Of a stretch of 64,000 nt of DNA, positions 4,349-60,969 are shown piece after piece. Where the stretch lies: the IMG/VR virus record IMGVR_UViG_3300034073_003631, positions 1 through 64,000 of that record. One strand, written 5' to 3'. Every line of letters starts with the position of its first letter. Position 1 is the first letter of the stretch. Under the pieces are notes generated by a model. That model was given only the letters and a program-made list of their open reading frames with translations, was not told where the DNA came from and made no database searches. The position numbers and the translations under genes were made by a program. Source of the stretch: a virus.

Positions 4349-5689
4349 TTAGTTTCTTCTAATGTTTAAATCTTTCAATAATTCATCAAGTGATATGTCC
4401 TCAAAATCTGAGGGGTCAAAATTTGTTTGCTTACCACCAGTATAATCATCTGGTGCTTGATTAGATGCAAATTCATCATCATCATAAGCATCTTCATCAT
4501 CCATATCATCCATATACTGGCTTTGTAGGTAATCAAGATATCTCTCTTTACTAACTCTAGCTTGTGAAATTAATTCATCAAATTCTCTTTTAGCATAATC
4601 TTGATCAGATGGTGTATCTGATATTACATATTTCATCAAATTAATAAATTCATCTGCTGGTATTTTATATAACTCAACAAAGAAAAATCTAATCAAACCA
4701 ATATCTGATTTATCAAATAATTCAGCAGGTAAAATATTCCTTATTTTTTCCAAAATGGCTGGACCAATTCTTAAACCTTCTGTTTCTGATTTTAATGTAT
4801 CTGCTTGACCTAATGTCATATTAGCCATATTATCATCACTAGAATAACCATGTCTTGCTAATGCTTCTTCAATTCCTTTTGCAATTTCATGACATAATAT
4901 TGGAAACATAAATGCTGTGGCATTGATTACAGTCTTTGTTTCACCAGTTTCTGGATCCTCTTCATCATCAACATCAACAGCTGCAGAAACTCCACCACCT
5001 TTTGCTGCCATATCCATCATTGATTCATTCAAGAAATATAATGCATCAACTAAAGGGATTGTTGTTGAGTATAGTTGGTATAATTTTGGGTCAATTGCAT
5101 CTAATTGAGATTTAACCTCTGGCTTCTCATATATATAATGAGTTTTCCTTGCAACCCCACCAATGATAGCATTAATGATATCCCTTTTGAAAACTTCATT
5201 TGATAATTCTTCTTCTTCTTCTGGGGATAATTCTTGTTTAATTTTATCTTTTTCTTTTCTCATTTTACCAACAACATCATTGCCTGGCATCCCTAAACTA
5301 GCATTAATGATGAACTCATCATCACTAACTTCCATTTCATTTAATGTTTCACTAATTGCTAATTCAACTAATTCATCACTATACCTAGATTCTAATTGTT
5401 GAATTGCAGAAGCATTCTGATATACTCTTGATGTTACAATTGAAACTAATTCATTTGCAGTTAATGTTTCTTTACCTGCAATCTTTCTAACTCTATTTAA
5501 TACATCATTAAATGAACGGCTATATAGTTTTTGAACATCTGCTGAACCCCTCTTTAAGGCAGGGTTTTGTCCAAACATAGAATTTGGGTCTGCAAGTTTT
5601 TTCTCCAATCTAGGATCCATACGTTCAGGACCAGTGTATTCTAACTGTTCTCTTAATTTTTTGTTGATTAGTTTGTCTATGTTCTTCAT
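4349..5689 (-). CDS. Putative structural protein in the head module
   Basis: 446 residues, not recognised. The N-terminus MKNIDKLINKKLREQ has the leader pattern ending L-R-E followed by Q. The middle is charged and helical and the C-terminus is strongly acidic (runs of D and E near 395-420). It sits between terminase and a chain of overlapping structural-like genes, overlaps the upstream gene by 1 bp (TAATG), and ends at a hairpin. A head-internal or scaffold-like role would fit the location, acidity and leader, but no known domain was identified. Confidence 0.6.
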   Translation of the reverse strand: MKNIDKLINKKLREQLEYTGPERMDPRLEKKLADPNSMFGQNPALKRGSADVQKLYSRSFNDVLNRVRKIAGKETLTANELVSIVTSRVYQNASAIQQLESRYSDELVELAISETLNEMEVSDDEFIINASLGMPGNDVVGKMRKEKDKIKQELSPEEEEELSNEVFKRDIINAIIGGVARKTHYIYEKPEVKSQLDAIDPKLYQLYSTTIPLVDALYFLNESMMDMAAKGGGVSAAVDVDDEEDPETGETKTVINATAFMFPILCHEIAKGIEEALARHGYSSDDNMANMTLGQADTLKSETEGLRIGPAILEKIRNILPAELFDKSDIGLIRFFFVELYKIPADEFINLMKYVISDTPSDQDYAKREFDELISQARVSKERYLDYLQSQYMDDMDDEDAYDDDEFASNQAPDDYTGGKQTNFDPSDFEDISLDELLKDLNIRRN

Positions 5690-6468
5690 TATCCTTTGAA
5701 ATTTATTAATTGCATAATGTTATCAATAATAGCATCTTTTGCTTTATTTGGTCCTATTGCTTTTGGAACAGTTTTTACACCTGGGCGTGGGTTTTGGAAT
5801 GGGTTATCTCTCCTTGATGGTTTTATTTTTGGATTTGCTGGTTTTACAACTGGTTTTGTTGTTGTATCAGCCTTTGGCATAGGGTTTATTTTTGGATTTG
5901 GGTTTTGGAATGGGTTATCTCTCCTTGATGGTTTTATTTTTGGATTTGCTGGTTTTACAACTGGTTTTGTGTCAGGGGCTTGTTCTTTTAAATGATTTAA
6001 CAAACCTCTCTTTGTAACTTGTGGTCTTAATTTTGATTCAACCATTTTATTCATTTGGTCTTCAATAAAAGAATCAATCATATTTGATTCCTTCATATCT
6101 TTTTTTGAATTACCCTTAACATCCATAACACATCTTTCATATTTGTTTTTTTGTGCTTTTGTCCACTCACTTCTTTCAGAAGTACCAAATTCTTTCTTTA
6201 ATTGTGCTGTGCAAATAGCCCAAGGATTGGATTTAGACTTTTTAGCCTCACCCATCTCTCTTTTCTCTAATCTAACATTATAACCTTTAGCCGCTAATTG
6301 CATAGCCTTTGGTTCATTTTTAGTTGAGATGCTTCCTTTTGTTGTGGTTGATTGTTCACCTAATAACTTTGAGTATAAATAATTTATATTATTATCACTC
6401 ATACCTTTTAAAGCGTTTATAGAAAAACCCTCCTCCAATAAGGTTAATACTTTTTTATTAATTTTCAT
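5689..6468 (-). CDS. Pro/Lys-rich putative virion protein with internal repeat
   Basis: 259 residues, unrecognised. A leader-like N-terminus ends LLGE before Q39, and a second candidate site (HLKE before Q) lies near residue 166. The C-terminal half holds two copies of a basic Pro-rich segment built on KPVVKPANPKIKP and SRRDNPFQNP, 37 residues apart. The central SNPWAICTAQLKKEFG stretch, with a later Cys, looks like a compact conserved domain. It overlaps both neighbours (1 bp and 11 bp), so it is part of a coupled head-gene operon. Basic Pro-rich tails and protease-like sites suggest a DNA-associated internal protein; this is inference. Confidence 0.6.
   Translation of the reverse strand: MKINKKVLTLLEEGFSINALKGMSDNNINYLYSKLLGEQSTTTKGSISTKNEPKAMQLAAKGYNVRLEKREMGEAKKSKSNPWAICTAQLKKEFGTSERSEWTKAQKNKYERCVMDVKGNSKKDMKESNMIDSFIEDQMNKMVESKLRPQVTKRGLLNHLKEQAPDTKPVVKPANPKIKPSRRDNPFQNPNPKINPMPKADTTTKPVVKPANPKIKPSRRDNPFQNPRPGVKTVPKAIGPNKAKDAIIDNIMQLINFKG
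5790..5970. repeat. Two ~70-bp direct repeats inside a coding region
   Basis: 5790-5859 and 5901-5970 are near-identical, offset by 111 bp (37 codons). They encode the duplicated KPANPKIKP/SRRDNPFQNP segment. They could expand or contract by slippage or recombination without shifting frame. Confidence 0.85.
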
Positions 6469-6850
6469 ATACTATGGTTTTTTCAAATTCTAAGATTAAA
6501 TCTCTTTCATACAGTTTATTTTTTATTTCTTGTTCAGTTTCACCAAACTTAAATACCAATCTATTTTTTGCATCTTCATTAACTTCCCAGCCTAATGCTA
6601 TAACACCATCAACAGAATCAATCATAGAGAAATAATCAGAGTTTTGTATTAAATACAATGATACATCTTCTGTTGTTAATTGTCCAACTTTTGTTATATA
6701 TTTTAATTCTGGCGGTTTTGGATAACCATTGGCAGGTTTTGCTTCCCAACTCTCCCCCCAAACTGAATCAGAGGATGAAAAGATAAACTCATATATATAA
6801 TCACCTTTATAATTGATACCCAAAGAATTTATGAAAATTAATCTATTCAT
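6458..6850 (-). CDS. Conserved-looking hypothetical protein of head operon
   Basis: 130 residues. No signal peptide or membrane segment is visible. It is rich in aromatics (VWGESWEAKPANGYPKPPE) and ends acidic. It overlaps the upstream gene by 4 bp (ATGA) and the downstream gene by 11 bp, so its stoichiometry is probably tied to theirs. I do not recognise the family. The position between the 436-residue acidic protein and the repeat protein implies a structural or assembly role. Confidence 0.55.
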   Translation of the reverse strand: MNRLIFINSLGINYKGDYIYEFIFSSSDSVWGESWEAKPANGYPKPPELKYITKVGQLTTEDVSLYLIQNSDYFSMIDSVDGVIALGWEVNEDAKNRLVFKFGETEQEIKNKLYERDLILEFEKTIVYEN

Positions 6851-17095: not shown

Positions 17096-17329
17096 ATGAA
17101 AAAATTCTTTAAATCATTATTAACAGCAAATGGTGATATATCAAGCAAACGATCAATAGGTATTTCTGCTGCAATGACTATCATATTTGCATCAATTGTT
17201 GATTTGTTTTCAGACTTCACAATAACTAATTATGTATTTGAAGGCCTTGTTTGGTTGGCTATTGCTGGATTAGGTTTTGTTGCTAGTGAAAAGTTTGCAG
17301 AGGTATTCAATTCAAAGAAGAATAGTTAG
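17096..17329 (+). CDS. Small membrane protein, holin candidate
   Basis: 77 residues with two hydrophobic helices (ISAAMTIIFASIVDLFS and YVFEGLVWLAIAGLGFVASE) and charged termini. The start is one base after the M23 stop, so the two are almost certainly co-expressed. Two-helix proteins beside endolysins are often class II holins. The second holin candidate (19014) is stronger by sequence; this one may be a partner or antiholin. Confidence 0.6.
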   Translation: MKKFFKSLLTANGDISSKRSIGISAAMTIIFASIVDLFSDFTITNYVFEGLVWLAIAGLGFVASEKFAEVFNSKKNS

Positions 17330-18936
17330 TTTGCAAAACAAAATAAATTTCTACTTTGTATATACCTCAAATCTCTTGTTTTAAAATTAGGTGGTAGTTG
17401 AAGAACTATAGCAACACCTCTACCTTGTTGACCAGTTTGACCACTATCTATTTTAATCTTCCAATCATTTGTTTTTTCTATATATTTTGGTCCATCAATT
17501 ATTAAACCTTTTATATTATCAAAAGTCCTTTTTATCTTTTCAAGATCTCCTTCAACAATTTTTTTAGTAGCCTCAATTATTATATCAATTATTTCTTCTA
17601 AAAATTTCTTAAAAAAATTTATATCAGAACCATAATCATTAAGAAAACCACTTTCTTTAATGTTTTTTAATATTTTTGGAATGTTTGGTTCTAATATTCT
17701 TGTAATATGGAGTGTGTTATTCTTTTTACTACTTGTAATATCATCTATTTTGAAATATTTTAATTCAATAATATCACCTTTAACTAAAACTTCACTTTTT
17801 TCTTCCATACATAATGAAACAGGGTTATCCACCATTATATCACCTTTTGTCATTTTATTATGTTCTTCAATTTCTAAAAAAACAGAGTTTTTGAAAATTA
17901 ATTCAATTTTATTTTTAATATCTTTATTTGAAGAAATACAATTACTATAAACATTATTTTGTTCATAACAATTTTTATAAAATTCTTTAATATTTTTACT
18001 TGATAACATTATTTTAATTGTGTCAGCATAAGCTAAATAAACTTTATTTTTTACTGTATTCTCACTATTTGCTTCACCTACTGCTTCAATATACAAAGCA
18101 CCATTCAAATCAGCTAATGTGCTTATTTGGTAATTAACATTACCTTTATATGATATAAATTGATTTGAATGTTCAAATCTTTTTTCAAATTTAAAAGCAT
18201 CAGTTGTCTCTCTTTTATGTGTCAATCCACAAAGTAATTTATCAATTGGTGTTGTTTTTTCGGTACAATCGTAAGAATAACTTGTACTTTTAGGTAATTC
18301 TTCTGAATCAAAATTTATTTGATAATCCACATATGTATTATATATTAAATTTTTTTCCTTACCTGCTTCAAGACTCATTAAACTTGTTTTATCATTTAGA
18401 TAAAAAGAATCATCATACATATTAACTAAATTCCTATATGAATAAAAATTAGGTTCATTTATTGATATCTTTCTTTCTCTATTTATAAAGAAATTTGTAA
18501 ATATATCAATATGAAGTGATACAAAATCATCAAACAAACCATCATCTCTTTTTTCTACACTTAATAGATTAGTAAAAATTTGACTAATATATATATTCAT
18601 AAATTTAGGAAGACTACTACAATAAAATTCAGCATTTAATTGGATTGATTCATTATCTAAATTTGATTTTTTTGATTTTTTTGATTTTTTTAATTGCTCT
18701 GTTGCTTTATCACAATCACTAAAATTTTTAAAATCAATAGATTTTAACTCAACATTTGGCTCTAAATATGATATAATTCTATTTTCTAATTTAGTTTTAC
18801 TATTATTTGGTACTATATCTTTAAATTTACCTTGTACACAATCATATACAAATTGAAACTCATCTGGTGTAATATATTTATGTTTCACACGTTTGCTATT
18901 ACCCTCATCTAATCTAAATAAATTAAAACTATTCAT
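17326..18936 (-). CDS. Large leader-bearing protein of unknown function
   Basis: 536 residues, not recognised. The N-terminus MNSFNLFRLDEG gives a candidate prohead-protease site (L-D-E before G12). The body is Lys- and Asn-rich with several Cys pairs (CDKATEQL, YDCTEKTT, CISSNKD) and an acidic-to-basic helical C-terminal third. It converges on the holin gene with a 4-bp overlap and has a good late-type motif upstream. I infer a virion-packaged protein from the leader; its activity is unknown. Confidence 0.6.
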   Translation of the reverse strand: MNSFNLFRLDEGNSKRVKHKYITPDEFQFVYDCVQGKFKDIVPNNSKTKLENRIISYLEPNVELKSIDFKNFSDCDKATEQLKKSKKSKKSNLDNESIQLNAEFYCSSLPKFMNIYISQIFTNLLSVEKRDDGLFDDFVSLHIDIFTNFFINRERKISINEPNFYSYRNLVNMYDDSFYLNDKTSLMSLEAGKEKNLIYNTYVDYQINFDSEELPKSTSYSYDCTEKTTPIDKLLCGLTHKRETTDAFKFEKRFEHSNQFISYKGNVNYQISTLADLNGALYIEAVGEANSENTVKNKVYLAYADTIKIMLSSKNIKEFYKNCYEQNNVYSNCISSNKDIKNKIELIFKNSVFLEIEEHNKMTKGDIMVDNPVSLCMEEKSEVLVKGDIIELKYFKIDDITSSKKNNTLHITRILEPNIPKILKNIKESGFLNDYGSDINFFKKFLEEIIDIIIEATKKIVEGDLEKIKRTFDNIKGLIIDGPKYIEKTNDWKIKIDSGQTGQQGRGVAIVLQLPPNFKTRDLRYIQSRNLFCFAN

Positions 18937-20052: not shown

Positions 20053-20958
20053 TTAAAATCTTTTGGTGATTTTTTGTTGGGTAGGTTTCTGTTTTGGTTG
20101 GTATTGTGCAGGATCTGTTGAATCTTGTGCATTCATTGGTATATTTGATGGGGAATAAACATTTGGATTAGTTTCTACTTTTGGATTAGGACTTGTTAAG
20201 ATTGTTTCTACACCACTTTTCAAATTTTCAGCGTTTTGACCAGAAAAATAAACATTTGCACTAGATTCAGCTTTTTTCAAAACACCACCCCCTACTGTTT
20301 TCATATATTCAACCATTTTTAAAAACCAAGAACTTATAGCGTCAAATTTATCTAAAAGAAACTTACATATATTTGCCAATAAATCAAAATTTCTTTCTGA
20401 AAAGAAAACAAACATATCATTTAATGATTTATTAATAGTTTTAAAATGGTCTTCTATTTTTCTCCAAAATGGAGTAAATATACTATTAACTTTATCTATT
20501 GATTGAACAAGTGGTTGATTCACTATAGTATCTTTCCATTTTGCAACTGGTGTCAATTCAGCAAAACCTGGCACAGCCAATACTAATTCAATAACACCAA
20601 GTATAAATTTTTTGGTTTTTTCCTCATTAGTTTCAGGTAAATTTAAACCCTCATAAAACCAATAAAGTGAATGTAATAAACCAATATAATTATCTGCAAC
20701 ACCACCAGTTGCAAATGCTGCTGTAAGTTGTGCATCATTTAATAAATTATGGATACCATTTGATGTACTAACATCATATCTAGTGATAACATTATTATAT
20801 GTGTTTATTAATTTTTTTGTTTCTTTTTCATTATACCCAGAATATTGGGTAGAATCCATAAAAGACCTAGGGGAATCAGCAGAACCTTGCTCATTTATAT
20901 TCTTAGTATAATATAATGACCTTATGTATTTTTTTTCATTTTTGTTTATATATAACAT
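20053..20958 (-). CDS. Leader-bearing protein with hydrophobic centre, possible internal virion protein
   Basis: 301 residues. The basic N-terminus ends NINE before Q24, a candidate prohead-protease site. Residues about 115-140 (FILGVIELVLAVPGFAEL) form a hydrophobic segment, followed by long amphipathic helices and a Pro/Asn/Gln-rich tail (NIPMNAQDSTDPAQYQ). No enzymatic motif is visible. A packaged protein that enters membranes during DNA ejection would be compatible, but this is inference. It starts 15 bp after a late-type motif. Confidence 0.6.
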   Translation of the reverse strand: MLYINKNEKKYIRSLYYTKNINEQGSADSPRSFMDSTQYSGYNEKETKKLINTYNNVITRYDVSTSNGIHNLLNDAQLTAAFATGGVADNYIGLLHSLYWFYEGLNLPETNEEKTKKFILGVIELVLAVPGFAELTPVAKWKDTIVNQPLVQSIDKVNSIFTPFWRKIEDHFKTINKSLNDMFVFFSERNFDLLANICKFLLDKFDAISSWFLKMVEYMKTVGGGVLKKAESSANVYFSGQNAENLKSGVETILTSPNPKVETNPNVYSPSNIPMNAQDSTDPAQYQPKQKPTQQKITKRF

Positions 20959-21360: not shown

Positions 21361-22332
21361 TTATGATTTTTTTGTACAGAGATTTTGTACTGCTGTTTTT
21401 GTGTTAATAAGAATACCTGGCCTATTTTCTGTTTTATTATCACCAATATTAAATTTAAATGTAAAATAACCTTTATCTAAATTTGGACCACATTCTGTAT
21501 AAAATAATATTTTACTCTTTTCATTTTTTATCTGTATAGTGTTATTATATTTTTCAGCAATAAAACTATTACCTACATTGATATTAACTTTATACTTTTT
21601 TCCCAAAGTAATTAAATCACTTTTAACTGCATTAGTCACACTAATTCTATTTGTATTTTTACAAAAATAATTATATACATTAGATATAAAGTTAGAATCT
21701 GTTGTGTCAGTAATAGATTTAACAAACCCAGTTGCATTTAAATCTTTAAATTCACGTGGTTTTTTCATTAATGATTCACAGTTAGTACTATAAATTGGTT
21801 GATTTTGTTTATTTCTAAAAAATATTTGCCCCCATTGAGTGTAAGCATCCTTAACAAATCCAAGTGACTTTGTTTCTTGGTTTATTTTTCTAACAAGACC
21901 AGCTGTTGATAATTGTTGATTGGTTGTGGCTTGAGCATTAGACACAGCACTAGCAGGAGGTGTTTTTGCATTAGGTGCAATAGTTTTAATATCCCCATCA
22001 GTTACTGATATTTTTCCAAATTTAGCAAAAACAGCTCTTAATGTGTTTGTACCAAATTTACCATCAGGATTAACCTTCAATGCCTGTTGTAAGGGTTTGA
22101 TATTTTCGCTTTCTGAACATACGAAATAAGGGCCACTATTTACTTTTTGATAACCATATGGACAATAGTTTGCAGATTGTTGTTGGGTTGATGCTGCTGG
22201 TTGTTGTTGTGGAGCAGTTTGTTGTTGTCTTTGTGCTAAAGTTTCTGGAGTGTCCATATCATCTTGTTCTAACAACACCCTTTTTATTAATGAAATAAGA
22301 TTATTTTCACTTAAACGTAATTTATTTTTCAT
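21361..22332 (-). CDS. Leader-bearing protein with peptidoglycan-binding-like domain
   Basis: 323 residues from the ATG at 22332. The open frame extends to 22359 but would cover the late-type motif. The N-terminus MKNKLRLSENNLISLIKRVLLEQ is the best-formed leader in the window, ending L-L-E before Q23. A Gln/Pro-rich linker follows, then CPYGYQKVNSGPYFVCSES and PLQQALKVNPDGKFGTNTLRAVFAKFG, which resembles a PG_binding_1 domain. The C-terminal 170 residues are unrecognised. The likely role is a packaged cell-wall-associated protein; enzyme activity is unknown. Confidence 0.68.
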   Translation of the reverse strand: MKNKLRLSENNLISLIKRVLLEQDDMDTPETLAQRQQQTAPQQQPAASTQQQSANYCPYGYQKVNSGPYFVCSESENIKPLQQALKVNPDGKFGTNTLRAVFAKFGKISVTDGDIKTIAPNAKTPPASAVSNAQATTNQQLSTAGLVRKINQETKSLGFVKDAYTQWGQIFFRNKQNQPIYSTNCESLMKKPREFKDLNATGFVKSITDTTDSNFISNVYNYFCKNTNRISVTNAVKSDLITLGKKYKVNINVGNSFIAEKYNNTIQIKNEKSKILFYTECGPNLDKGYFTFKFNIGDNKTENRPGILINTKTAVQNLCTKKS

Positions 22333-23890: not shown

Positions 23891-24544
23891 TTATGCAAAA
23901 AATTTACTCTTTAATTGACCCCAAGCAGTAGATAAGAATTTACAAATAATAGGGGTTAATGCTTTCATCATAATTTTCTTTGTTTCATTATTTTGTAAAA
24001 ATTCTGCAATTGTATTTCTAAACACTCCTCCCAATAAAGTTCCAAAAAAACCATTTTTAAAAATACTATCTTGTGCTTTACCTAGGATAACTGTTTCAGC
24101 AATAGCATCTATAAGTTTTTCAGTAAACACATTACAATCACCTGACAATGCTTTTACTAAGGAAGCTGGATCATCTAATAAAAAGTTAATAATTGTTTTT
24201 AATAACCAACCATCTGGAATTTTCAAATATTTAGTTAAAATTAATTTTAAGAAATATTCTAATATTGTTTGCCCAACACCTGAACCAACTGTGGAAGATG
24301 CCATATTTGCAAGATTTCCAGGGTTTAAAAAACTACCAATACTATTCATAGTATTAGCATTCAAAAATTCTCTTAATACTTTTGTATTATTTAACTTATT
24401 AAGTTCATTTATATAATGAACTGACACATATAGTTTTTTCTTTTCTGAAAATGAGTTAAATTCTCTTATAGTTAAATTAGAAAATTTATTTTCAAATTTT
24501 TTCTGTTCTCTTATTAATTCTAATATGTTTCTTTTAGTTATCAT
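23891..24544 (-). CDS. Leader-bearing protein with several hydrophobic helices
   Basis: 217 residues. The leader MITKRNILELIREQ ends I-R-E before Q14. A Gly/Ser/Asn-rich stretch (SIGSFLNPGNLANMASSTVGSG) precedes long hydrophobic amphipathic helices (QTILEYFLKLILTKYL, WLLKTIINFLL, FGTLLGGVF). This composition suits a protein that inserts in or crosses a membrane, such as an ejected internal protein. It is the last gene of a run that begins at 27219. Function unknown. Confidence 0.6.
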   Translation of the reverse strand: MITKRNILELIREQKKFENKFSNLTIREFNSFSEKKKLYVSVHYINELNKLNNTKVLREFLNANTMNSIGSFLNPGNLANMASSTVGSGVGQTILEYFLKLILTKYLKIPDGWLLKTIINFLLDDPASLVKALSGDCNVFTEKLIDAIAETVILGKAQDSIFKNGFFGTLLGGVFRNTIAEFLQNNETKKIMMKALTPIICKFLSTAWGQLKSKFFA

Positions 24545-24547: not shown

Positions 24548-25648
24548 TTATCTTTTTATTTTAAAGAAATCAGGAACATTTGCATAATCACCAATAACAT
24601 CTAATGCTTCCAAATTTTTACCAAATTTTTTATCTTTATATGTATTATAACAAACTTGAATTTTATTTTTTAACCCTAATAAACTTGGTGGTATTCCTGT
24701 TGTATCATTCTTATACCTATATAAAGCATTTGTGAACTTTTCTAAATCAAGATTACATTGTCTATATGAAGCATCACTAATATTTAGTGATCCATAATCA
24801 TCTTCCTTTGATTTACCTGTTTTCTTTGGTTGAAAAAGAATATAATCATATGAAAATATATTTGGATATAAATCCTTTAAATTAGTTTTAACATAATTAG
24901 CCTCCTGAGTATAGTCAAATTTAGCATCAGTTACCCAACCATTTTTTTCCAAAGTTGCAATAACTTGCTTTTGTTGGGGTGTTATACCACCAACATTTGC
25001 CCCAGTTGCTGGTTTATAGAAAAATTGGTCTTGTGTGCTTGGATATAATTTTGGATTGAAATTTGGTTCATTTGATAGGAATTCAAATATTTGTGTGATA
25101 CTTAATTTTTCATATTGTTCAGGTGAATTTAAAAATCTCCTTTCTTGAACCGGAAATTGTGAAGCACCTTTAAATCCATAACTAGCAACTGATTCATTAA
25201 CTTTTTTTATTGTTTCAGAAATCTTTTGACTTAATCCAGAACAAGTAAATGGTTGTGAACTTGTGAAATATTTTTGCCCATTATTATTACCAATAAGATA
25301 GGTGTTTAAAGTTCCATCACTATTTATATTCTCCAAATCAAAGAAAACAGCACTATCAACAGCATAATTATTATTAGTTTCATTAAGCCCTAAAATGCCA
25401 ATTCTACCTAATTGTTTTGATGGTCTAGGTTTTCCTGTTATTTCTTTAGTGTTTGGATTCCAACCTTTAAATCCAGTGAAATCACAAAGATTTTGATTAA
25501 CTATTTGATTAGCTAATGATTGAGTGTGATTTGGTGTGAAACTCTTTGTTGGATCAAAAGTATTATTTGTTGCCTGCTCTTTTAGAGCATTATGCATATA
25601 TAATATTCTTTTCTTTTCAGAATTTTCAATATTTAAGTTAATTTTCAT
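24548..25648 (-). CDS. Leader-bearing protein of unknown function
   Basis: 366 residues. The leader ends ALKE before Q25. The rest is soluble-looking and rich in Asn, Phe and Tyr, with CDFTGFKGWNPNTKEITG, LEKNGWVTDAKFDYT and scattered Cys. The pattern PQQKQVIATLEKNGW hints at a small helical domain. No catalytic motif is obvious. It is spaced 3 bp from the downstream gene and 11 bp from the upstream gene, both also leader-bearing, so these three probably form a packaged set. Confidence 0.58.
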   Translation of the reverse strand: MKINLNIENSEKKRILYMHNALKEQATNNTFDPTKSFTPNHTQSLANQIVNQNLCDFTGFKGWNPNTKEITGKPRPSKQLGRIGILGLNETNNNYAVDSAVFFDLENINSDGTLNTYLIGNNNGQKYFTSSQPFTCSGLSQKISETIKKVNESVASYGFKGASQFPVQERRFLNSPEQYEKLSITQIFEFLSNEPNFNPKLYPSTQDQFFYKPATGANVGGITPQQKQVIATLEKNGWVTDAKFDYTQEANYVKTNLKDLYPNIFSYDYILFQPKKTGKSKEDDYGSLNISDASYRQCNLDLEKFTNALYRYKNDTTGIPPSLLGLKNKIQVCYNTYKDKKFGKNLEALDVIGDYANVPDFFKIKR

Positions 25649-25659: not shown

Positions 25660-27219
25660 TTAAAAATTTTCAATAGATAAATCCTCCCCACCTAACCAAT
25701 CAAATTTATTTTTTGCTGGTTGTGTAACAACTGGTGGCACAACAACATTACTTTGACATAAAGTAGCCAAATCTTGTTCAGTAAATTGTGTAACCCTTTT
25801 TTGTGATTGAAGTGCATTAAATGTGTTTGGCCCAAAAAACCCATCAACAGTAACACCTAAACATTGTTGTAACTTTTTAACAGGTTCACCTTTTGAACAT
25901 TTTTTATAAACACCATCAGAAGGGAATTGAAAACCATTTGGACAAAATCTTGTTACTCCACCTCCACCAGTAGTTGCTCCTCCACCACCTATTGTTGTTT
26001 CATTTTTCTTATTTTTATTCTTTTCATAGCAAGAATGAATATAGAAAGTTTTACCACTAGTATTAATAAATTTTATACAACCATCATCATCACAAACAGT
26101 CTTTCCATAAGAACTTCTATCTTTAAAATACCAGTTAGTACCATATGTTGTGGAAGGGTAATATAATTTCAAAACAATACCACCATGTTTCTCCACTTCT
26201 GGATTCTGTGTTGAATTAATAAGGATACCTTCCCTAGGTAGGGGTGCATTTGGTTGAATACCATAATTATTATACAAGAAATTACTAATACATTTTGGTG
26301 CAGCATTTTTACCCCCAAAGCATTTGCCAGTGTAATAAGATTTACCATTTTTATCAGTAAATTTAACACAACCATTTGCATCACAACTAGTAAACCCATA
26401 AACTGAATTATCACCAAAATGCCAATTATAACCAGTTCTTGGATCAGGATATAATGATGTTAATACAATTCCACCACGTTGTTGAATTTCAGGGTTATTT
26501 GTTGTTATTTTATAACCTCCACTTGGGAAGGGGTCAGTTTCTTTCTTATTAAATTGATTTTTTATTAAATTAACAATACAAGGAACTTCTTTGGTTGCCA
26601 TTTTTTTGGTATAGTTATCTAATAACTTACCAATCATTTGATTTACTTGGGATAACTCCTCTGCCTTTACATGTTCTTTTTTCATTACAGTATATAACTG
26701 TATGTTATTTTCATCCCAATATGTTTGTTTTGTTAGGCAAAAATCATTGAAAGTTTTCAATTCTTTTAAAGCCCCATAAACTCTTTCTAATATTTTACCT
26801 TCAATTAAACCTTGTGCTGGATCTGTAAGAGTATCCCAAAAAACGCCAGGTGAAAAACTTGAAGTTGGATTATACGCATTTTTTAATTTGGATGCTACAC
26901 TACTAGCAATATCACTAGAACCTTTCTTTGTTATATTTGGAATTCTATCACACATTGCAAAATAACTATAAAGTTCATCTAAAGGTCTATTTCTACCTCT
27001 AGCATCAATAGCTTGTTTTGCCCAATAAGCAGCTGTCAAACCCCCTATAACATAACCAGCTGCTTTTAAAAAAGGCCAAATTAAAAAACCTGCCTCATTT
27101 AACAATTCCTTACTTTCTGATGCTTTTTGAATATTTTCCTTTAAGTTAAAACTTGGATCATATCCCATCAATAATTTCTGTCTTAATATTATATCTATTT
27201 TGTTATCAATATCTTTCAT
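25660..27219 (-). CDS. Leader-bearing protein with membrane helix, duplicated domain and PG-binding domain
   Basis: 519 residues. A leader of about 42 residues ends LLNE before A43 (also LKE at 26-28). Immediately after it lies a hydrophobic helix (FLIWPFLKAAGYVIGGLTAAYWA), which cleavage would expose as a new N-terminus. Residues about 240-400 hold two copies of a roughly 90-residue domain (GGIVLTSLYPDPRTGYNWHF with CDANGCVKFTDKNGKSYY; GGIVLKLYYPSTTYGTNWYF with CDDDGCIKFINTSGKTFY). A PG_binding_1 domain follows (EPVKKLQQCLGVTVDGFFGPNTFNAL). It could tether to peptidoglycan during entry. Confidence 0.68.
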   Translation of the reverse strand: MKDIDNKIDIILRQKLLMGYDPSFNLKENIQKASESKELLNEAGFLIWPFLKAAGYVIGGLTAAYWAKQAIDARGRNRPLDELYSYFAMCDRIPNITKKGSSDIASSVASKLKNAYNPTSSFSPGVFWDTLTDPAQGLIEGKILERVYGALKELKTFNDFCLTKQTYWDENNIQLYTVMKKEHVKAEELSQVNQMIGKLLDNYTKKMATKEVPCIVNLIKNQFNKKETDPFPSGGYKITTNNPEIQQRGGIVLTSLYPDPRTGYNWHFGDNSVYGFTSCDANGCVKFTDKNGKSYYTGKCFGGKNAAPKCISNFLYNNYGIQPNAPLPREGILINSTQNPEVEKHGGIVLKLYYPSTTYGTNWYFKDRSSYGKTVCDDDGCIKFINTSGKTFYIHSCYEKNKNKKNETTIGGGGATTGGGGVTRFCPNGFQFPSDGVYKKCSKGEPVKKLQQCLGVTVDGFFGPNTFNALQSQKRVTQFTEQDLATLCQSNVVVPPVVTQPAKNKFDWLGGEDLSIENF

Positions 27220-28382: not shown

Positions 28383-28853
28383 ATGAACATATTCTTCTTG
28401 GATGAAAATCCCCAACTAAACGCCCAATATCATTGTGACAAACACGTGGTTAAGATGATATTGGAAACAGCACAATTGCTATGTTCTGTGCATCATATGT
28501 GTGATGAGATTGATGTACCATATAAATTGGCGCATAAGAACCATCCATGTTCCATCTGGTGTAGAACATCATTAAGTAATTATTTTTCATTATGTGAATT
28601 GGGTCTTGAATTATCAAAAGAATACACCCATAGATATGGAAAGCACCATAAATCAACAGATGTGATTCATTGGTGCTTAGATAATCTTCCAAATATTAAA
28701 GATATTGGGTTCACCAAACCCCCACTTGCAATGCCAGAACAATATAAAGTAGATGATTATGTCCAATCATATAGGAACTATTATATTGGGGATAAAAAAA
28801 GATTTGCAACCTGGAAAAATAGAGATGTTCCTTCTTGGTTTAAGGACATTTGA
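28383..28853 (+). CDS. Conserved phage hypothetical protein, His/Cys-rich
   Basis: 156 residues from the ATG at 28383; a TTG start 15 bp upstream lies inside the promoter. Recurrent motifs QYHCDKHVVKMILETAQLL, HKNHPCSIWCR, YRYGKHHKS and KKRFATWKNRDVPSWF match a family I remember from many phage genomes without an agreed function. The number of conserved His, Cys, Lys and aromatic residues suggests an enzyme, possibly nucleic-acid-directed. The host-type promoter suggests early or middle expression. Confidence 0.7.
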   Translation: MNIFFLDENPQLNAQYHCDKHVVKMILETAQLLCSVHHMCDEIDVPYKLAHKNHPCSIWCRTSLSNYFSLCELGLELSKEYTHRYGKHHKSTDVIHWCLDNLPNIKDIGFTKPPLAMPEQYKVDDYVQSYRNYYIGDKKRFATWKNRDVPSWFKDI

Positions 28854-37294: not shown

Positions 37295-37828
37295 ATGATA
37301 ATTAATGAAAAATTTATTACTGAAAGACCTAATAAAAAATTAAAGAAATTAAAAGGAATTATAGTCCATTGGACAGCAAATACACGATCTGGGGCAGGGG
37401 CTGCCTCTCATTTGAATTATTTTAAAAATAATTGGAAAATAGGTTGTACTCATTATGTTGTTGATGATAAAGAAATTATTTACTTAATTCCAGATGATGA
37501 AGTTGCCTACCATGTTGGTGATAGGGAAAGAAAAAGCAATCTACCCATTAGAAAAGCATTAGTACCCCAAGGTGGAAGTCCAAATGATTATTTCATTGGG
37601 ATTGAAATGTGTGTAAATATAGACAATAATTGGGGAAAAACCATCAATAATGTAAAAGAATTATTACACCATTTATTTGAGAAATATAATTTAACAGTTG
37701 ATGATGTTCATCGCCATTTTGATATATCTGGAAAAGATTGCCCTTTTATGTATCAACCACAACTTGTGAATGAAAGGTATTTTGATTGGGGCTGGATTAC
37801 CTTTAAAGAATTTATAAAAGCAAAATAG
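37295..37828 (+). CDS. N-acetylmuramoyl-L-alanine amidase (amidase_2 type)
   Basis: 177 residues. IIVHWTANT (zinc His25), the WKIGCTHYVVDD beta segment, AYHVGDR and VDDVHRHFDISGKDCP (second His, Lys and Cys positions) are those of T7 lysozyme-like zinc amidases, which cut between MurNAc and L-Ala. The first ten residues, MIINEKFITE, also fit the leader rule (I-T-E before R), so it might be virion-carried and not, or not only, a lysis enzyme. Late-type motif upstream; transcribed alone on the plus strand. Confidence 0.88.
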   Translation: MIINEKFITERPNKKLKKLKGIIVHWTANTRSGAGAASHLNYFKNNWKIGCTHYVVDDKEIIYLIPDDEVAYHVGDRERKSNLPIRKALVPQGGSPNDYFIGIEMCVNIDNNWGKTINNVKELLHHLFEKYNLTVDDVHRHFDISGKDCPFMYQPQLVNERYFDWGWITFKEFIKAK

Positions 37829-38977: not shown

Positions 38978-39475
38978 ATGAGCATAAAGTTTAATATCAC
39001 AAATGAAGATAAGATTAGAATTAAAAATCTTTATCTTAATGAGAAATCAAAAGAAGAAAACAAGCGTTTTTGTCATAAGAAAAATATCAAATCATTAGAA
39101 GAAATTGTTGGTGAGGATGACCAAGATGATTATATTGAAGGTATTAAAATTAGAAAGTCTGGAATTAATTCATTGACTGATATGATTGAAACATTGAAAA
39201 CAATGAGAACTAGACCTAACTTAACAGATAAAGGTGAAGACTTATGTTATAAAGTTTCAAATACAATTAACCAGTTTAAACCATATAATTACTTTGATGA
39301 AACAAGTAATCAATGTGTTTCTGCTATGGAAAAAATAATTGAATTATACAAGGAAAATAAACATGGTGAGGAATTAGTTAAAGATTTAGAAAAAATATAT
39401 AGTGATGAAAGTGTCTCACCAAGAGGTAGAGAATATATTAAGCACTGTCTAGGTGTTATCAAAGGTAAGAACTAA
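38978..39475 (+). CDS. Leader-bearing helical protein
   Basis: 165 residues from the ATG at 38978 (an in-frame ATG at 38954 lies in the A/T-rich leader). The leader MSIKFNITNEDKIRIKNLYLNE precedes K23, the cut position shared with three other leaders. The remainder is helical, Lys/Glu-rich and has three Cys (RFCHKKN, DLCYKVSN, QCVSAME) plus a late CLGVIKG. Function unknown. It ends inside a terminator shared with the opposing gene. Confidence 0.58.
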   Translation: MSIKFNITNEDKIRIKNLYLNEKSKEENKRFCHKKNIKSLEEIVGEDDQDDYIEGIKIRKSGINSLTDMIETLKTMRTRPNLTDKGEDLCYKVSNTINQFKPYNYFDETSNQCVSAMEKIIELYKENKHGEELVKDLEKIYSDESVSPRGREYIKHCLGVIKGKN

Positions 39476-43090: not shown

Positions 43091-43094
43091 TTTT

Positions 43095-43721: not shown

Positions 43722-43759
43722 AATATTTTTATATTTTTGTTATATATTAGTTATTATTG

Positions 43760-43767: not shown

Positions 43768-43797
43768 CTGTATTTATTGTTATAAATTATAACAAAT

Positions 43798-44418
43798 ATG
43801 GATAATATTACAAAATTAATTAAAGAGAATTTAGAAAAATTCACTAATAGAACATTGGTATTAAAGAAAAATGTAAATATATCAGAAGAACTTGAATACC
43901 ATATTAATGAAAACTTAACATTAACTAATAATGTTTTTATGGTTTATTCCAAAAAATACTTTGACTTGATTAATGAGGTTAGAGATTTATGGATGAGAGA
44001 TTTAATCCAACTAAATGAAGAAGATGAACAAATGGTAATGTCAGATACTGGCAAAGTTGCATTATTTGAAGGTGAAATGGTTTATCTTGATGCACCTGTA
44101 CTTGAAAGTGATGATTTTGATTTCTTAAATGAGGCTGAACATAGGGGTAAAAAAGTTAATATAGGAAAACCATTTAGAACTCCTGGTGGACCAAAGAAAT
44201 TTGCAGTTTATGTTAAAACACCAGGTGGGGGCGTTAAAAAGGTTACATTTGGTGATCCAAATTTAAAGGTGAGAAATAAAAACAAAGGTGCAGCCAAATC
44301 ATTTAGAGCAAGACATAAGTGTGACCAAAAGAAAGATAGAACCACAGCAGGATACTGGTCATGTAATGTGGGCAGATATTCAAAACAACTTGGATTAAAA
44401 TCTTCAAATAGTTGGTAA
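43798..44418 (+). CDS. Head-maturation-associated domain protein with internal LNE site
   Basis: 206 residues. The first ~112 residues are acidic and helical and end FDFLNE before A, a good prohead-protease-type site. The following part, KKVNIGKPFRTPGGPKKFAVYVK, VTFGDPNLKVR, KSFRARHKCDQK and YWSCNVGRYSK, matches a domain I remember from marine T4-like phages, often near prohead protease or core genes. Cleavage would free the basic Cys-bearing domain. It is translationally coupled (TAATG) to the first LRR gene. Confidence 0.7.
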   Translation: MDNITKLIKENLEKFTNRTLVLKKNVNISEELEYHINENLTLTNNVFMVYSKKYFDLINEVRDLWMRDLIQLNEEDEQMVMSDTGKVALFEGEMVYLDAPVLESDDFDFLNEAEHRGKKVNIGKPFRTPGGPKKFAVYVKTPGGGVKKVTFGDPNLKVRNKNKGAAKSFRARHKCDQKKDRTTAGYWSCNVGRYSKQLGLKSSNSW

Positions 44419-54397: not shown

Positions 54398-55954
54398 ATG
54401 AAAATAATTATAACAGAAAGTCAATTTGGTATCTTAACTGAAAATAAGGCTACTATTGATAATCTTGTGAAAATTGCCAAGCTATCCCAATCTGATGCTG
54501 AATTATTATATTCAGTTGCTGGTAAATTATCTATGTGGTTGGCAAAGAAAATTAAAGACAAAAGGATAAGGTCAAAAATTGAGGATATAACTGGGATAAT
54601 TGATTGGATTAAAACTGGATTAAATGGTAATATACAAACCATTAAGAATGTTGAATTCAATGAATTGGTTAATATGCAAGATAGATGGCACAAATCATTG
54701 AAAGCAAAAGATTATGATTTTGAATATTTTGATGAAAACATACCTGTATTGGATTTTAGGGATGATTCTGGGTTGGGGTATTATTGGGTCAAGTTAAAAA
54801 CCAATCCTTGCACAGAGGAGGCTGAAAGGATGGGGCATTGTGGTAGATCTGGAAAAGGTGATTTATATTCTCTTAGAGTCAATGAGTTAAAAGGTCAAAC
54901 TGGTAAAGTTAGTAATAAATCACTTATCACAGCATCAATTAAGGATGGGGTTGTTTATCAAATGAAGGGTAGATTCAACAAGAAACCAAGTGAAGAATAT
55001 TATGATTACATTATAAAACTTCTATTAAAGAAGAACCCAGATGGAGATTATATGATAAAATCATTTGGTTCAGAATATGCTTCAAAGGAAGATTTTAATG
55101 TTATGGATCTTGATTTCTCAAAGTATGTTGATTTTTTCAAAACTAGAATTGATTTGTTAATATCAGATGAAGTTCTTGAAAATAATGAAAAAAGATTAGA
55201 TAGTTTAGAAAGTGGAACATTGTTTTATGAAAATGAAGATTGTGTTAGACAAGCTGTTTATCAATTCTTGACTAGTTATGAAAAAATGGAAATAAGAGAT
55301 GAGAATAGTAATTTAGAATATGCTAATATTATTTTTAAATTATATGAAGAATCTAATGTTTTACCAAATGAAGAATTTATTGATTTATTAAATAGATATT
55401 TTGAGTTAAAGAATGATAAAGTTGATTTTTTTGATATGAAAATTGAAGAAAGATATGGGGGACATGTTTTTCATTTTGTAAATGAAAATGGTGTAAAAGA
55501 GGAATATGAAATCTTTAAAGAAGAAGATGCAAGAGAAAGAGCAATAACCTCAATTCATGATATTTATGATAATATAGCAGAGTTATTTAGAAATAGAACA
55601 TATTATGAAAATCGTGGAATTGATTTGGATAGTTTTGTTGAAATATCTAAAGATGAAATGATGGAATATATTTCATCTATGGTTTGGGATGATCCCAAAC
55701 ATTTTTTGGATAAAGATGATTATACAGATAAAGAAGTTTATGAATATATTGATAATGAAGTAAATGATTATGAGGAAAATCCAAAAAGTTTTATTCGTGA
55801 TTTTGATATCGATGAAACTAGTTATTTTAATAGAGATAAATTTGATGAAGCCATTTTTGAACATGATGGGTATTCCACATTAGCATATTATGATGGTGAA
55901 TGGGTAGAAATAAGAGTTTGTGATGAAACATATATAACATATAGAACTGAATAA
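54398..55954 (+). CDS. Leader-bearing PcfJ-like domain protein, second copy
   Basis: 518 residues from the ATG at 54398. The leader MKIIITESQFGILTE precedes N16. The central domain shares with the 33022-34575 protein GIIDWIKTGLNGN, GLGYYWVKLKTNPC, RMGHCGRSGKGDLYSLR and YQMKGRFNKKPSEEYYDYI. The C-terminal acidic half is divergent. Two packaged-type copies in one genome with different tails suggest they differ in target, or that one arose by duplication and drift. It sits 4 bp before a leader-bearing HExxH gene. Confidence 0.68.
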   Translation: MKIIITESQFGILTENKATIDNLVKIAKLSQSDAELLYSVAGKLSMWLAKKIKDKRIRSKIEDITGIIDWIKTGLNGNIQTIKNVEFNELVNMQDRWHKSLKAKDYDFEYFDENIPVLDFRDDSGLGYYWVKLKTNPCTEEAERMGHCGRSGKGDLYSLRVNELKGQTGKVSNKSLITASIKDGVVYQMKGRFNKKPSEEYYDYIIKLLLKKNPDGDYMIKSFGSEYASKEDFNVMDLDFSKYVDFFKTRIDLLISDEVLENNEKRLDSLESGTLFYENEDCVRQAVYQFLTSYEKMEIRDENSNLEYANIIFKLYEESNVLPNEEFIDLLNRYFELKNDKVDFFDMKIEERYGGHVFHFVNENGVKEEYEIFKEEDARERAITSIHDIYDNIAELFRNRTYYENRGIDLDSFVEISKDEMMEYISSMVWDDPKHFLDKDDYTDKEVYEYIDNEVNDYEENPKSFIRDFDIDETSYFNRDKFDEAIFEHDGYSTLAYYDGEWVEIRVCDETYITYRTE

Positions 55955-55958: not shown

Positions 55959-56555
55959 ATGAAATTAATAGAAATTTTTAAAACACTAATTAATGAGGAA
56001 ACTGATGGTATTACTATTTTTTTAAATAAAATACAAAAAGAGTATGATATATCAGATTCCTTATATACTGAATTGATGAATTTCATTGAGAAATCTAATT
56101 GTCAAAAAATAGAGTTTGCAAAATTCAATTATCCTGCCCTTGGATTGGCCTTACATAATGGTGTTATGATAAACTCAACTATGGTTGGTGGGAGTTTAAA
56201 TTTTTTGGTTTTTGTTATTTTCCATGAGATAGCACATCAATTCCAGTTTAAGAAATATGGTGATAAGATTATGTATGGTGTTTATTCTGGTGATGTTAGT
56301 ATTGATGAGGCTGCCAAATTTATGAAACACACAGAAGAGGTTGCTGATGAATTTGCTATGAGGAAGATAAGGGAGTTGCAGAAAAAAGGATTAATAGATG
56401 ATAAGTATAAACCAGCATCACAATATAAGAATGTATCAATTCACTCAATAAAAAGTATGATAAGTGGTTTTAGAAAACAATTAGAAAATCAAAACTTATC
56501 ATCCCCTACTGAAATTAGTAAATTTTTCTATAATCTAGTTAAAAGTAAAATGTAA
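55959..56555 (+). CDS. HExxH metallopeptidase with leader
   Basis: 198 residues. The leader MKLIEIFKTLINE precedes E14 (I-N-E site, position 13 as in three others). FVIFHEIAHQFQFKKYG provides the HExxH zinc site near residue 91, and HTEEVADEFAMRKI may add the third ligand. It lacks a signal peptide. It follows the PcfJ-like gene directly; the two are likely co-packaged. The protein family is different from the 48370/49698 pair. Confidence 0.7.
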   Translation: MKLIEIFKTLINEETDGITIFLNKIQKEYDISDSLYTELMNFIEKSNCQKIEFAKFNYPALGLALHNGVMINSTMVGGSLNFLVFVIFHEIAHQFQFKKYGDKIMYGVYSGDVSIDEAAKFMKHTEEVADEFAMRKIRELQKKGLIDDKYKPASQYKNVSIHSIKSMISGFRKQLENQNLSSPTEISKFFYNLVKSKM

Positions 56556-58433: not shown

Positions 58434-58468
58434 AGTAATTAAGTTTATTGTGCAAAAACAACTTTATT

Positions 58469-59293: not shown

Positions 59294-59303
59294 AATTAAG
59301 AAT

Positions 59304-60458: not shown

Positions 60459-60460
60459 CT

Positions 60461-60469
60461 ATATTTATA
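60461..60469 (+). promoter_or_regulatory. Late-promoter-like ATATTTATA motif
   Basis: The motif ends 11 bp before the 60481 start; it lies inside the otherwise early-looking methyltransferase block. Confidence 0.55.
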
Positions 60470-60480
60470 TAATAAAAAGT

Positions 60481-60969
60481 ATGGATAAATTATATAAACA
60501 AATTAATAGGGTTAAATTTTTAATGGAAGACCATAAAAATTTTGGGGATGAAAGATTTGGTATTGGAAACTCCATTGATTTACTTAAAAATAATTATAAC
60601 ATACACAAAGAAGATAAATTACCAGAAGAACTAATTAATGTACATGATTCTGCAACACATTCTGAATACTGGGAAGATACGTTAAAATATGTTTCATTAA
60701 AAAAAAAGAAATTAAGTAATAACAAAAAATTATATACAACTCAAAGTTATTTATCAAAATCATTTATTGATACAATAGATAATAATGTTTATAATTATTC
60801 TGATATAATTGTTGCAACTGCAAATGATGATAAATTATGGATTTTAAATGGTCATCATAGAATTTACTATGATAGATTAAATGATAGAAATTCTATAGCA
60901 TATATTTTATCAAAAAATGATGTAAAAGAAATTGACAATGTGTTTTACACAAGTGAAGATGATGAATAA
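60481..60969 (+). CDS. Leader-bearing ParB-like fold protein
   Basis: 162 residues. The leader MDKLYKQINRVKFLME before D17 fits the rule (L-M-E). IIVATANDDKLWILNGHHRIYYDRL near residue 105 matches the GHHR core of ParB/Srx-type proteins, which can be nucleases or bind nucleotides. It is the only gene of the late, leader-bearing class among the methyltransferases, so it may have inserted there. Its activity is unproven. Confidence 0.68.
   Translation: MDKLYKQINRVKFLMEDHKNFGDERFGIGNSIDLLKNNYNIHKEDKLPEELINVHDSATHSEYWEDTLKYVSLKKKKLSNNKKLYTTQSYLSKSFIDTIDNNVYNYSDIIVATANDDKLWILNGHHRIYYDRLNDRNSIAYILSKNDVKEIDNVFYTSEDDE

Follow-up and report, generated by a model that had tools for sequence, protein, structure and literature searches.

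Sequence evidence supports a real, modular N-terminal tag on many proteins encoded in the window (the whole 64,000-nucleotide stretch of virus DNA that was analysed), and we consider it very likely (probability of about 0.82) that these leaders are T4-like propeptides for capsid targeting, in enlarged, clade-specific versions, the proteins bearing them being predicted to be packaged, cleaved and ejected. Apparent in the DNA are a modular tag located at the N-terminus and ending in (I/L)-x-E, a linked protease gene, and sites of the same type in capsid and scaffold-like proteins. Taking T4 as the model for docking, cleavage, packaging and ejection, a short amphipathic, basic N-terminal helix would attach the new protein to the prohead core during assembly, the S77 (gp21-type) prohead protease that the phage itself encodes would then cut after (I/L)-x-E and free the mature protein within the head, and the freed protein could pass into the next host along with the DNA. 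The leader would act as a swappable address, with one leader on unrelated proteins and different leaders on homologous ones. Given that short interchangeable tags ending at the expected protease cut occur on many unrelated proteins, sequence alone probably suffices to list the packaged proteins of this phage. This interpretation, offered in the first-pass annotation, is partly supported: the modular tag, the S77 protease and the capsid and scaffold-like sites of the same type speak for it, and several of the function labels were not confirmed.

Enrichment was counted in 71 non-LRR window proteins of at least 70 aa, with E at residue 8-30 and the expectation taken from protein interiors. The strict motif, [IL]xE[QASGN], was observed 21 times against 7.0 expected (Poisson P 1.4e-5), so that chance should account for about one in three motif-only matches; the control [IL]xD gave 16 against 19.9, and [IL]xE followed by any other residue gave 25, with 15.5 expected. 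Positions 1487-64000 of the window are 99.98% identical to a 270-kb contig, G001, where the strict motif occurred 59 times against 22.7 expected, and where it was present in 52 of 320 proteins, whereas a resampling control of 2000 draws gave 29.7 +/- 4.8 and never more than 50. From these excesses we estimate roughly 22 (excess proteins) to 36 (excess sites) true leaders in this phage. Random viral contigs showed 83 strict matches against 78.6 expected (1.06-fold), a mild rise of [IL]xEQ (20 against 12.0), and 266 against 197.8 (1.34-fold) for [IL]xE before other residues; given these mild rises, the larger excesses alone are informative. Q at P1' was enriched 4.8-fold (16 of 143 sites), and the residues preceding the site were basic, with a net charge of +0.61 versus -0.21 internally. 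The cultured Flavobacterium phage immuto 2-6A (NC_055915; immuto below), which has S77, also showed the N-terminal motif in excess (31 against 13.6). The excess was weak in relatives G003 (1.53) and G009 (1.41), and in the first 98 kb of G001 (1.49) it did not rise above the [IL]xD control (1.52).

The clearest leader, family F1, reads LTESDLxxIVKRVIxE and is a virus tag; at least 120 viral stretches match its pattern versus 4 stretches in 84,980 cellular genomes. The pattern left out the last three residues of the leader, so E at P1 was not required; among the 140 matches listed, in 124 loci, E nevertheless stands at P1 in 137 and I/L at P3 in 130, P1' is Q or N in 80, and an ATG lies within 14 codons in 139. 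The viral matches listed have glutamate at P1 in 134 of 136 and an ATG at most 14 codons away in all 136. An upstream stop within 14 codons in 97 of 137 F1 hits leaves a distant start no room. Among the matches listed, the 137 mature parts of at least 40 aa (3 of them from cellular-genome contigs) form at least 72 clusters (BLAST, E 0.01). Each of 26 tag contigs, picked by a stricter form of the pattern, had 1 to 9 matches to a relaxed form, and 14 random contigs had none; G001 itself gave no match to the relaxed DNA pattern, its F1 leaders having diverged. No match was obtained by tblastn with a near-canonical 23-residue leader against cultured phages, for which the query was possibly too short. 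It is highly improbable that composition and chance account for these leaders, with I/L/K/E-rich N-termini yielding I/L-x-E accidentally and the shared look being coincidental: the motif is common (about 1.3% per position), 7.0 strict window sites are expected anyway and [IL]xE before other residues is up 1.34-fold even in random viral contigs, yet the strict motif stands at 1.06-fold in random viral proteins, E occupies P1 in matches to a pattern that did not demand it, and one leader precedes at least 72 mature clusters. For the whole set, chance is refuted by the controls (window, G001 resampling, random contigs); single motif-only entries may still be due to it.

All 18 I/L-x-E strings named in the first-pass annotation occur in the genes where it placed them, and its cuts after residue 22 and after residue 13, in four genes each, agree with our ATG starts. 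Genes were called with a simple greedy caller that accepts ATG starts only, so some starts may be wrong; residues below are counted from these starts, the slash marks the predicted cut, and genes are named by their left coordinate. The following leaders are backed beyond the motif:

4349..5689, minus strand: leader-tagged protein adjoining the terminase gene, leader MKNIDKLINKKLRE/Q, residue 14
17326..18936, minus strand: leader-tagged protein, leader MNSFNLFRLDE/G, residue 11
21361..22332, minus strand: leader-tagged protein, F1 leader MKNKLRLSENNLISLIKRVLLE/Q, residue 22
28840..29583, minus strand: leader-tagged protein, F1 leader MEKKYKLTESGLNKLVKRIIYE/Q, residue 22
31087..33012, minus strand: leader-tagged protein, leader MRLLKSLEQLIIE/S, residue 13
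33022..34575, minus strand: leader-tagged protein, leader MKLINVTKSLILE/A, residue 13
36450..37199, minus strand: leader-tagged protein, F1 leader MAKTIRLTEHDLSIIIKRVIRE/Q, residue 22
38978..39475, plus strand: leader-tagged protein, leader MSIKFNITNEDKIRIKNLYLNE/K, residue 22
54398..55954, plus strand: leader-tagged protein, leader MKIIITESQFGILTE/N, residue 15
55959..56555, plus strand: leader-tagged protein, leader MKLIEIFKTLINE/E, residue 13
60481..60969, plus strand: leader-tagged protein, leader MDKLYKQINRVKFLME/D, residue 16

Modularity appears in both directions. The leader families F1-F4 of G001 have 17 members, among which only two mature-part similarities were found (one inside F4 at E 9e-70, the other between F2 and F3 at E 0.005); the five F1 genes are spread over both strands, and the mature part of 28840 showed no similarity to other F1 members. 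Conversely, homologous mature proteins bear different leaders: a 41% homolog of 55959 carries a full F1 leader, MKKIVRLTESDLTRIIKRVISE/Q; a 45% homolog of 38978, whose alignment starts at residue 23, has an F1-like leader ending INRVLAE/Q; 33022 and 54398 are paralogues with different leaders (33% identity in alignment A2, 37% over 268 aligned residues); and other such swaps occur. One further swap, between 36450 and a G022 protein, was dropped because the match spans only 61 C-terminal residues. Homologs of 21361 that carry canonical F1 leaders are limited to weak matches (30% over 107 residues including the leader, E ~1e-4). Sites at matching positions were seen in orthologues of 36450 (RRIINE/A in a full-length G004 orthologue, 46%), of 31087 (SIISE/A in G004, 77%), of 4349 (26-27% identity, ending KIIKE/A in the near-duplicate contigs G010 and G011 and SRINE/A in G022), of 17326 (LLNE/G in G003 and G004, which share most proteins, and RLDE/G in G005), and of 60481 (FLME/D in G005, the sole orthologue found). 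Homolog support for the site, in counts that include near-duplicate contigs, stood at 7 of 9 for 4349, 3 of 3 for 17326, 2 of 4 for 31087 and 1 of 2 for 25660 (listed below). Some sites with homolog support of this sort fall in ordinary conserved proteins, such as the terminase.

The remaining candidates of the window are:

5689..6468, minus strand: candidate, LLGE/Q, residue 38
20053..20958, minus strand: candidate leader, INE/Q, residue 23, motif only
23891..24544, minus strand: candidate leader MITKRNILELIRE/Q, residue 13, motif only
24548..25648, minus strand: candidate leader, LKE/Q, residue 24, motif only
25660..27219, minus strand: candidate leader, LKE/N at residue 28 or LLNE/A at residue 42, motif
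37295..37828, plus strand: Amidase_2 protein (70.7 bits), doubtful leader MIINEKFITE/R, residue 10
43798..44418, plus strand: candidate long propeptide of about 112 residues, LNE/A cut before a conserved basic C-terminal domain

Three of the named strings do not end short leaders, those of 5689 (residue 38), 25660 (residue 42) and 43798 (residue 112); the looser matches FGE (27232) and MNE (48370, 49698) do not fit I/L-x-E and were rejected. The amidase leader is doubtful because R at P1' falls outside the enriched set. Relative L014 has LVTE/Q at the matching place of 5689, so conservation extends to E/Q but not to the P3 residue. The junction of 43798 reads LNE/A, ISE/A, INE/A, LNE/A, ITE/A and LDE/G in 6 of 6 aligned sequences (itself and immuto included, the latter with LDE/G), and the protein also has a short N-terminal site, LIKE/N.

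The expected protease was located from the head-module anchor near the left end of the window:

2518..4269, minus strand: T4-type terminase large subunit (phrog_2, E 1.8e-36)

Leftward from this gene, G001 continues with the portal and then a T4 gp21-type (S77) prohead protease (G001 104848-105549; PF03420, 78.7 bits against a cut-off of 27), just past the left end of the window, where the first-pass annotation had predicted it; PF03420 had no match in the window's own record, which stops before reaching it. The family also matched in 11 of 12 IMG/VR relatives and in both annotated phages, and all 20 protease homologs contain ELxHP and G[IV]SSRG, which we take to be the conserved catalytic His and Ser motifs of S77. 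In L024 the order is terminase, portal, two genes, protease, LRR-like genes, scaffold-like protein and capsid protein, which places the protease between the portal and the scaffold and major capsid genes. The capsid protein has a site LINE/A in G001, conserved in 12 of 12 aligned IMG/VR relatives, and immuto has VSE/A there, which is not I/L-x-E; LxE/Q is present in 15 of 18 aligned rows of the scaffold-like protein, with that of G022 lacking it. S77 was found in 22 of 26 tag contigs longer than 90 kb, the same 22 having a terminase match and the other 4 neither. Given that S77 occurs in 8 of 14 random long viral contigs as well, protease co-occurrence alone is weak evidence and was rejected as stand-alone proof. 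Among five random contigs, the motif count was 70 against 32.4 expected in S77-positive and 48 against 37.4 in S77-negative ones, a contrast that lends weak support since G043 (2.86-fold), one of two positive contigs, carries most of it (G046, 1.55; S77-negative G051 and G052, 1.47 and 1.43).

Leaders of this kind could instead address another compartment or partner (membrane, phage nucleus, host chaperone or protease), with the E as a helix cap or docking residue and not a cut site. The F1 leader is indeed strongly amphipathic (hydrophobic moment 0.76 versus 0.35 +/- 0.02 in shuffles), and LTESD presumably resembles a helix N-cap. We regard this as distinctly unlikely, given that P3 and P1 match gp21 specificity, that the 43798 junction keeps [IL]xE/[AG] at residue 112, far from any leader helix, and that sites of matching type occur in the capsid and scaffold-like proteins.

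Under the propeptide reading, the tagged proteins are predicted cargo, most of it without known function. Among them are a Tae4-type amidase (G001 176492-177172; PF14113, 37.7 bits against a cut-off of 27), in which the residue mutated in Ssp1 4bi4 (C50A) aligns to a Cys, taken as that of the active site, and an ART-PolyVal ADP-ribosyltransferase (G001 217730; PF18760, 70.6 bits against 31.2); ART-PolyVal scores at G001 178322 and 175399 were below that cut-off (25.9 and 22.2 bits). At most 9 of 72 tagged mature representatives match any Pfam family (E 0.01) and at most 16 any PHROG (E 0.001), so most tagged proteins would be new. Of the functions first assigned to the window proteins, Amidase_2 (37295, with its doubtful leader) holds, PG_binding_3 in 25660 is a weak Pfam match under its cut-off (21.6 against 24.6 bits), with NCBIfam matches to peptidoglycan hydrolases also weak and far under cut-off, and no match named peptidase, PcfJ or ParB was found with 20 window proteins against Pfam (E 0.01) and 7 against NCBIfam (E 1). 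Fold predictions for an ART-like protein (pLDDT 33) and the 33022 family (pLDDT 49) were too poor for use; a PDB fold search with the latter gave nothing at E <=0.001, and phmmer against the PDB gave no match for the weaker ART-like protein.

Tagged proteins might also be scaffold or core parts consumed in head assembly and not delivered effectors, which for single genes such as 4349, a conserved gene adjoining the terminase, is compatible with the propeptide reading; the same protease cuts the T4 core proteins gp22, gp67 and gp68, according to the available part of PMC5694885. As an account of the set it is unlikely, since Tae4, ART-PolyVal, PG_binding_1 and LysM are enzymatic or wall-binding domains, not core-like, and since the cargo seems to turn over: in IMG/VR single-sequence scans, which detect close relatives only, just one relative beyond the same phage was found for 36450 and none for the Tae4-like protein. 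The relatives that IMG/VR gave for these two proteins and for 4349 were few and close.

We think it likely that a whole clade of large T4-like phages shares an interchangeable N-terminal address with which dozens of effectors are loaded into each head, drawn from a rapidly changing pool of at least 72 clusters, mostly unknown and with enzymes that target peptidoglycan or ADP-ribosylate among them. The proteins that phages inject mostly lack known relatives and are therefore hard to find; with a recognisable leader and its expected protease, identifying what a phage injects would become a matter of a search and a proteomics check and, if the reading is true, a catalogue of injected proteins could be drawn up for never-cultured phages. 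Natural leader sequences would be on offer for loading proteins into phage heads, and leader exchange suggests an evolutionary route to the capture of new effectors. No description of the leader was found in the literature covered, which excluded most subscription journals and all preprints, and "LTESDL" occurred in none of the papers covered.

Comparisons with known systems refer to the available parts of the papers cited. T4 gp21 cleaves at L/I-x-E, and T4 targeting propeptides have 10-19 residues (PMC9026906). Like IPI, IPII, IPIII and Alt of T4, the proteins described here are dissimilar, have a short N-terminal leader (here a predicted propeptide) with an L/I-x-E end and belong with an S77 protease, and an ADP-ribosyltransferase is among the cargo of T4 and the predicted cargo here (PMC9026906). 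Unlike in T4, there are several lineage-specific leader families of up to 22 residues, F1 has two I/L-x-E sites and the Q or N preference at P1' noted above, and the number of tagged proteins per genome, estimated at 22 to 36, compares with Alt and three IPs in T4. In SPN3US, PhiKZ and 201phi2-1, too, the prohead protease matures many head proteins by cutting after E (19 each in PhiKZ and 201phi2-1, 9 in SPN3US; PMC10052503). However, the PhiKZ site is S/A-x-E (PMC9026906), the eight N-terminal propeptides of SPN3US have 20 and 24 residues (two) or 111-254 (the others; PMC10052503), and no short tag common to dozens of proteins was found described for these three phages (PMC10052503, PMC9026906, PMC5694885), two SPN3US paralogues starting with an identical 15 residues (PMC5694885). 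In phage P1, 30 N-terminal residues of DarB suffice to bring a foreign protein into the capsid, but BLAST gave no common signal among Dar proteins and protease removal of the DarB signal was not found described (PMC9024508). Crassvirus phiCrAss001 likewise has large virion stores of capsid and tail cargo proteins thought to be ejected, but no leader or protease step was found, "protease" and "cleaved" being absent from the main text (PMC10172136). Polyvalent proteins, predicted to be packaged and injected, similarly include ADP-ribosyltransferase domains; those are multidomain proteins for which no common leader was found described (PMC5512222), whereas here the predicted packaging signal itself is visible.

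Comparison of sequences suggests, with a probability that we put at roughly 80%, that the short N-terminal leaders ending in I/L-x-E in the window would be capsid-targeting propeptides of the T4 kind, in clade-specific versions. The first-pass annotation had described about twenty window proteins with a basic amphipathic N-terminus of this type, and all 18 strings that it named were found. I/L-x-E is common in proteins, and a motif match by itself is weak. Among 71 window proteins, a set that excluded LRR-like paralogues and proteins shorter than 70 aa, [IL]xE[QASGN] with E at residue 8-30 was observed 21 times versus an expectation of 7.0 derived from interior stretches of these proteins. The control [IL]xD was observed 16 times versus 19.9 expected. 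The pattern is therefore genuine, and chance may account for about a third of the motif entries in the window.

The parent virus record of the window is 76,565 bp long. Window positions 1487-64000 correspond to bases 107649-170162 of G001, an IMG/VR contig of 270,075 bp, at 99.98% identity. Positions 1-1486 had no match to G001, with the break falling inside the portal gene; either a chimeric assembly or variation between strains may be the cause. The head genes are ordered as terminase, portal, two genes, prohead protease of the T4 gp21-type S77 family (PF03420), LRR-like genes, scaffold-like protein, and major capsid protein. A prohead protease had been expected left of the window, and its gene was indeed found in the near-identical G001; it would lie 0.6 to 1.3 kb past the left end of the window if the two are collinear throughout.

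G001 104848-105549: S77 prohead protease (Pfam match)

This protease scored 78.7 bits against the Pfam S77 profile (cut-off 27), and ELxHP and G[IV]SSRG were present in 20 of 20 homologs. The capsid protein had LINE/A in all 12 IMG/VR homologs and VSE/A in immuto, a cultured Flavobacterium phage with S77, at a place that we take to correspond to the T4 maturation site. The scaffold-like protein had L-x-E/Q in 15 of 18 rows and L-x-E with another following residue in two, one row being a fragment; the more distant contig G022 lacked L-x-E/Q in this protein. Most head substrates thus indicate the same specificity as the leaders.

The clearest leader family, F1 (LTExxLxxLIKRVIxE), is common to three window proteins, with gene starts at 21361, 28840, and 36450. 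Public collections were scanned with back-translated LTESDLxxIVKRV, omitting the last three leader residues, and the pattern occurred in at least 120 viral stretches versus 4 stretches in 84,980 cellular genomes. Among the 140 matches listed, an ATG lay at most 14 codons away in 139, E (outside the search pattern) stood exactly at P1, before the presumed cut, in 137, I or L stood at P3 in 130, and P1' was Q in 59, N in 21, E in 19, and S in 14. The three matches without E were an Aliarcobacter match within a long reading frame, also the only listed match without a near ATG, and the viral loci L130 and L211. In these two loci the frame ends 17 residues after the leader match, and the leader helix may occur at the C-terminus as well. 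LTESDL was encoded by 62 distinct 18-base strings in 127 of the listed matches, so F1 leaders are not recent DNA copies. From the listed matches, 137 mature parts of at least 40 aa fell into 72 clusters (BLAST, E 0.01), some of which distant kinship could merge; mean column identity was 5% in an alignment of the 72 representatives. Two genes with F1 tags, together with an S77 protease, were present on a contig of a Prochlorococcus single-cell genome (63,985 bp; L234, L235), which may derive from a phage through infection or contamination of the cell.

Co-occurrence with S77 was assessed in all 26 F1-tag contigs longer than 90 kb among the F1 loci listed. S77 was found in 22 and was absent in four even at E 10; a terminase match was likewise absent in these four, and all 22 contigs with a terminase match had S77, so the gaps look like missing genome pieces. 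Terminase identity to that of the window was 62-71% in 20 of the 22 contigs and 44-45% in two, by which the F1 phages and the window phage look like one clade. Co-occurrence is weak on its own, because 8 of 14 random contigs longer than 90 kb also had S77. Relaxed-pattern genes all lay on the protease-gene strand in 20 of 22 contigs (G034 and G036 were mixed), which is mild support given that ∼67% of genes in G001 and G022 lie on that strand anyway and the five F1 genes of G001 are on both strands. In five random contigs, three of which were used only partly, the strict N-terminal count was 70 versus 32.4 expected in two of the eight S77-positive contigs, and 48 versus 37.4 in three of the six S77-negative ones. 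Per contig, the excess was 2.86-fold in G043 and 1.55-fold in G046 (both S77-positive), versus 1.47-fold in G051 and 1.43-fold in G052 (both S77-negative); since G046 did no better than the latter two, the contrast rests on G043. The leader families of G043, MKPFKQFLTE/Q (pattern MKxFKQFLxE/Q), which presumably resembles T4 IP leaders, and M[ND]xDSxLIFE/A, suggest that S77 phage lineages have tags of their own.

Leaders are exchangeable between proteins. In the mature family that begins around YMFFxNLxQ, the G001 member carried MINPRIKRIIETAIKE/Q, those of G009 and L118 carried F1 leaders, and those of G011 and G022 carried MNLNRIIKKVLRE/E and MKNLNNIIKKVLKE/E, respectively; in the leader region of six aligned members, the only invariant residues were Met1, a single Ile, and the last Glu. 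Homologs of 55959 (MKLIEIFKTLINE/E; 41% identity), 38978 (45%), and G001 183418 (MNLQENINRIKQMMGILNE/Q; 43%) bore a full F1, an F1-like, and an F1 leader, respectively, and the paralogues 33022 and 54398 (33% identity), in one genome, had different leaders. One candidate swap was dropped on recheck. The LNE/A assigned to 43798 was present, but at residue 112, and so is not a short leader; it looks like a long-propeptide junction. Across six sequences, including its own and that of immuto, the junction read LNE/A, ISE/A, INE/A, LNE/A, ITE/A, and LDE/G, and an E that never changes, preceded by a variable P2 and by I/L at P3 and followed by a small P1', is as expected of a protease site.

The T4-like capsid-targeting reading of the first-pass annotation was partly supported, by the protease gene, head-protein sites, and modular tag; we lowered our confidence in it slightly, since the S77 contrast depends on a single contig and a swap had to be dropped. 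By analogy with T4 (PMC9026906), the leader would dock its protein onto the core and be removed at maturation, and the packaged protein would, we infer, then be ejected. At residue 9, F1 leaders have a further I/L-x-E, LTE, which belonged to the search pattern; the five F1 leaders of G001 also have LTE or LSE there. Such a second site is in line with other propeptides being cut more than once (PMC5694885). The underlying principle is already that of T4, and a passage in a T4 review raises such leaders as a possible evolutionary mechanism for packing varied proteins (PMC9026906). Judged by our literature searches, novelty lies in leader families that extend across the clade, in how many and how diverse the tagged proteins are, in the swapping of leaders, and in using a leader to find packaged proteins.

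In G001, the window (3.0-fold) and the 20 kb that follow it (12 versus 1.6 expected) held most of the strict-site excess; the excess was 1.49-fold in the first 98 kb, where the [IL]xD control reached 1.52, and 1.92-fold beyond 190 kb. Tagged proteins included a Tae4-family amidase in which a Cys aligned with that of the active site, an ART-PolyVal ADP-ribosyltransferase scoring above the family cut-off, two proteins with weaker ART-PolyVal matches, and, in other phages, PG_binding_1 and LysM proteins. At most nine of the 72 tagged representatives among the listed matches matched any Pfam family (E 0.01). The peptidase, PcfJ, and ParB labels proposed earlier found no match so named among 20 window proteins searched against Pfam and seven against NCBIfam; outside the window, G001 183418 had a SprT-like match below cut-off.

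Other repeated genes included 34 short paralogues in tandem arrays by pattern count, for which LRR-like is a descriptive label. Many start like MEKEALKRIFDFLEEK, with an L-x-E within that start.

Window 13493-14373: LRR-like array
Window 44418-48098: LRR-like array
G001 40173-44045: LRR-like array
G001 93366-96806: LRR-like array
G001 222371-228245: LRR-like array

On the minus strand of G001, 190490-201926 held 26 very small ORFs (60-85 aa), 21 of which start like MKNI. Three paralogous proteins starting with MNVLSLFDGMSCGQIALN or similar lie at window 56938-61888, with a fourth elsewhere in G001. ARAGORN placed a tmRNA gene at window 14603-15024, with the tag GNTLETLATLGLVREDAVVAA.
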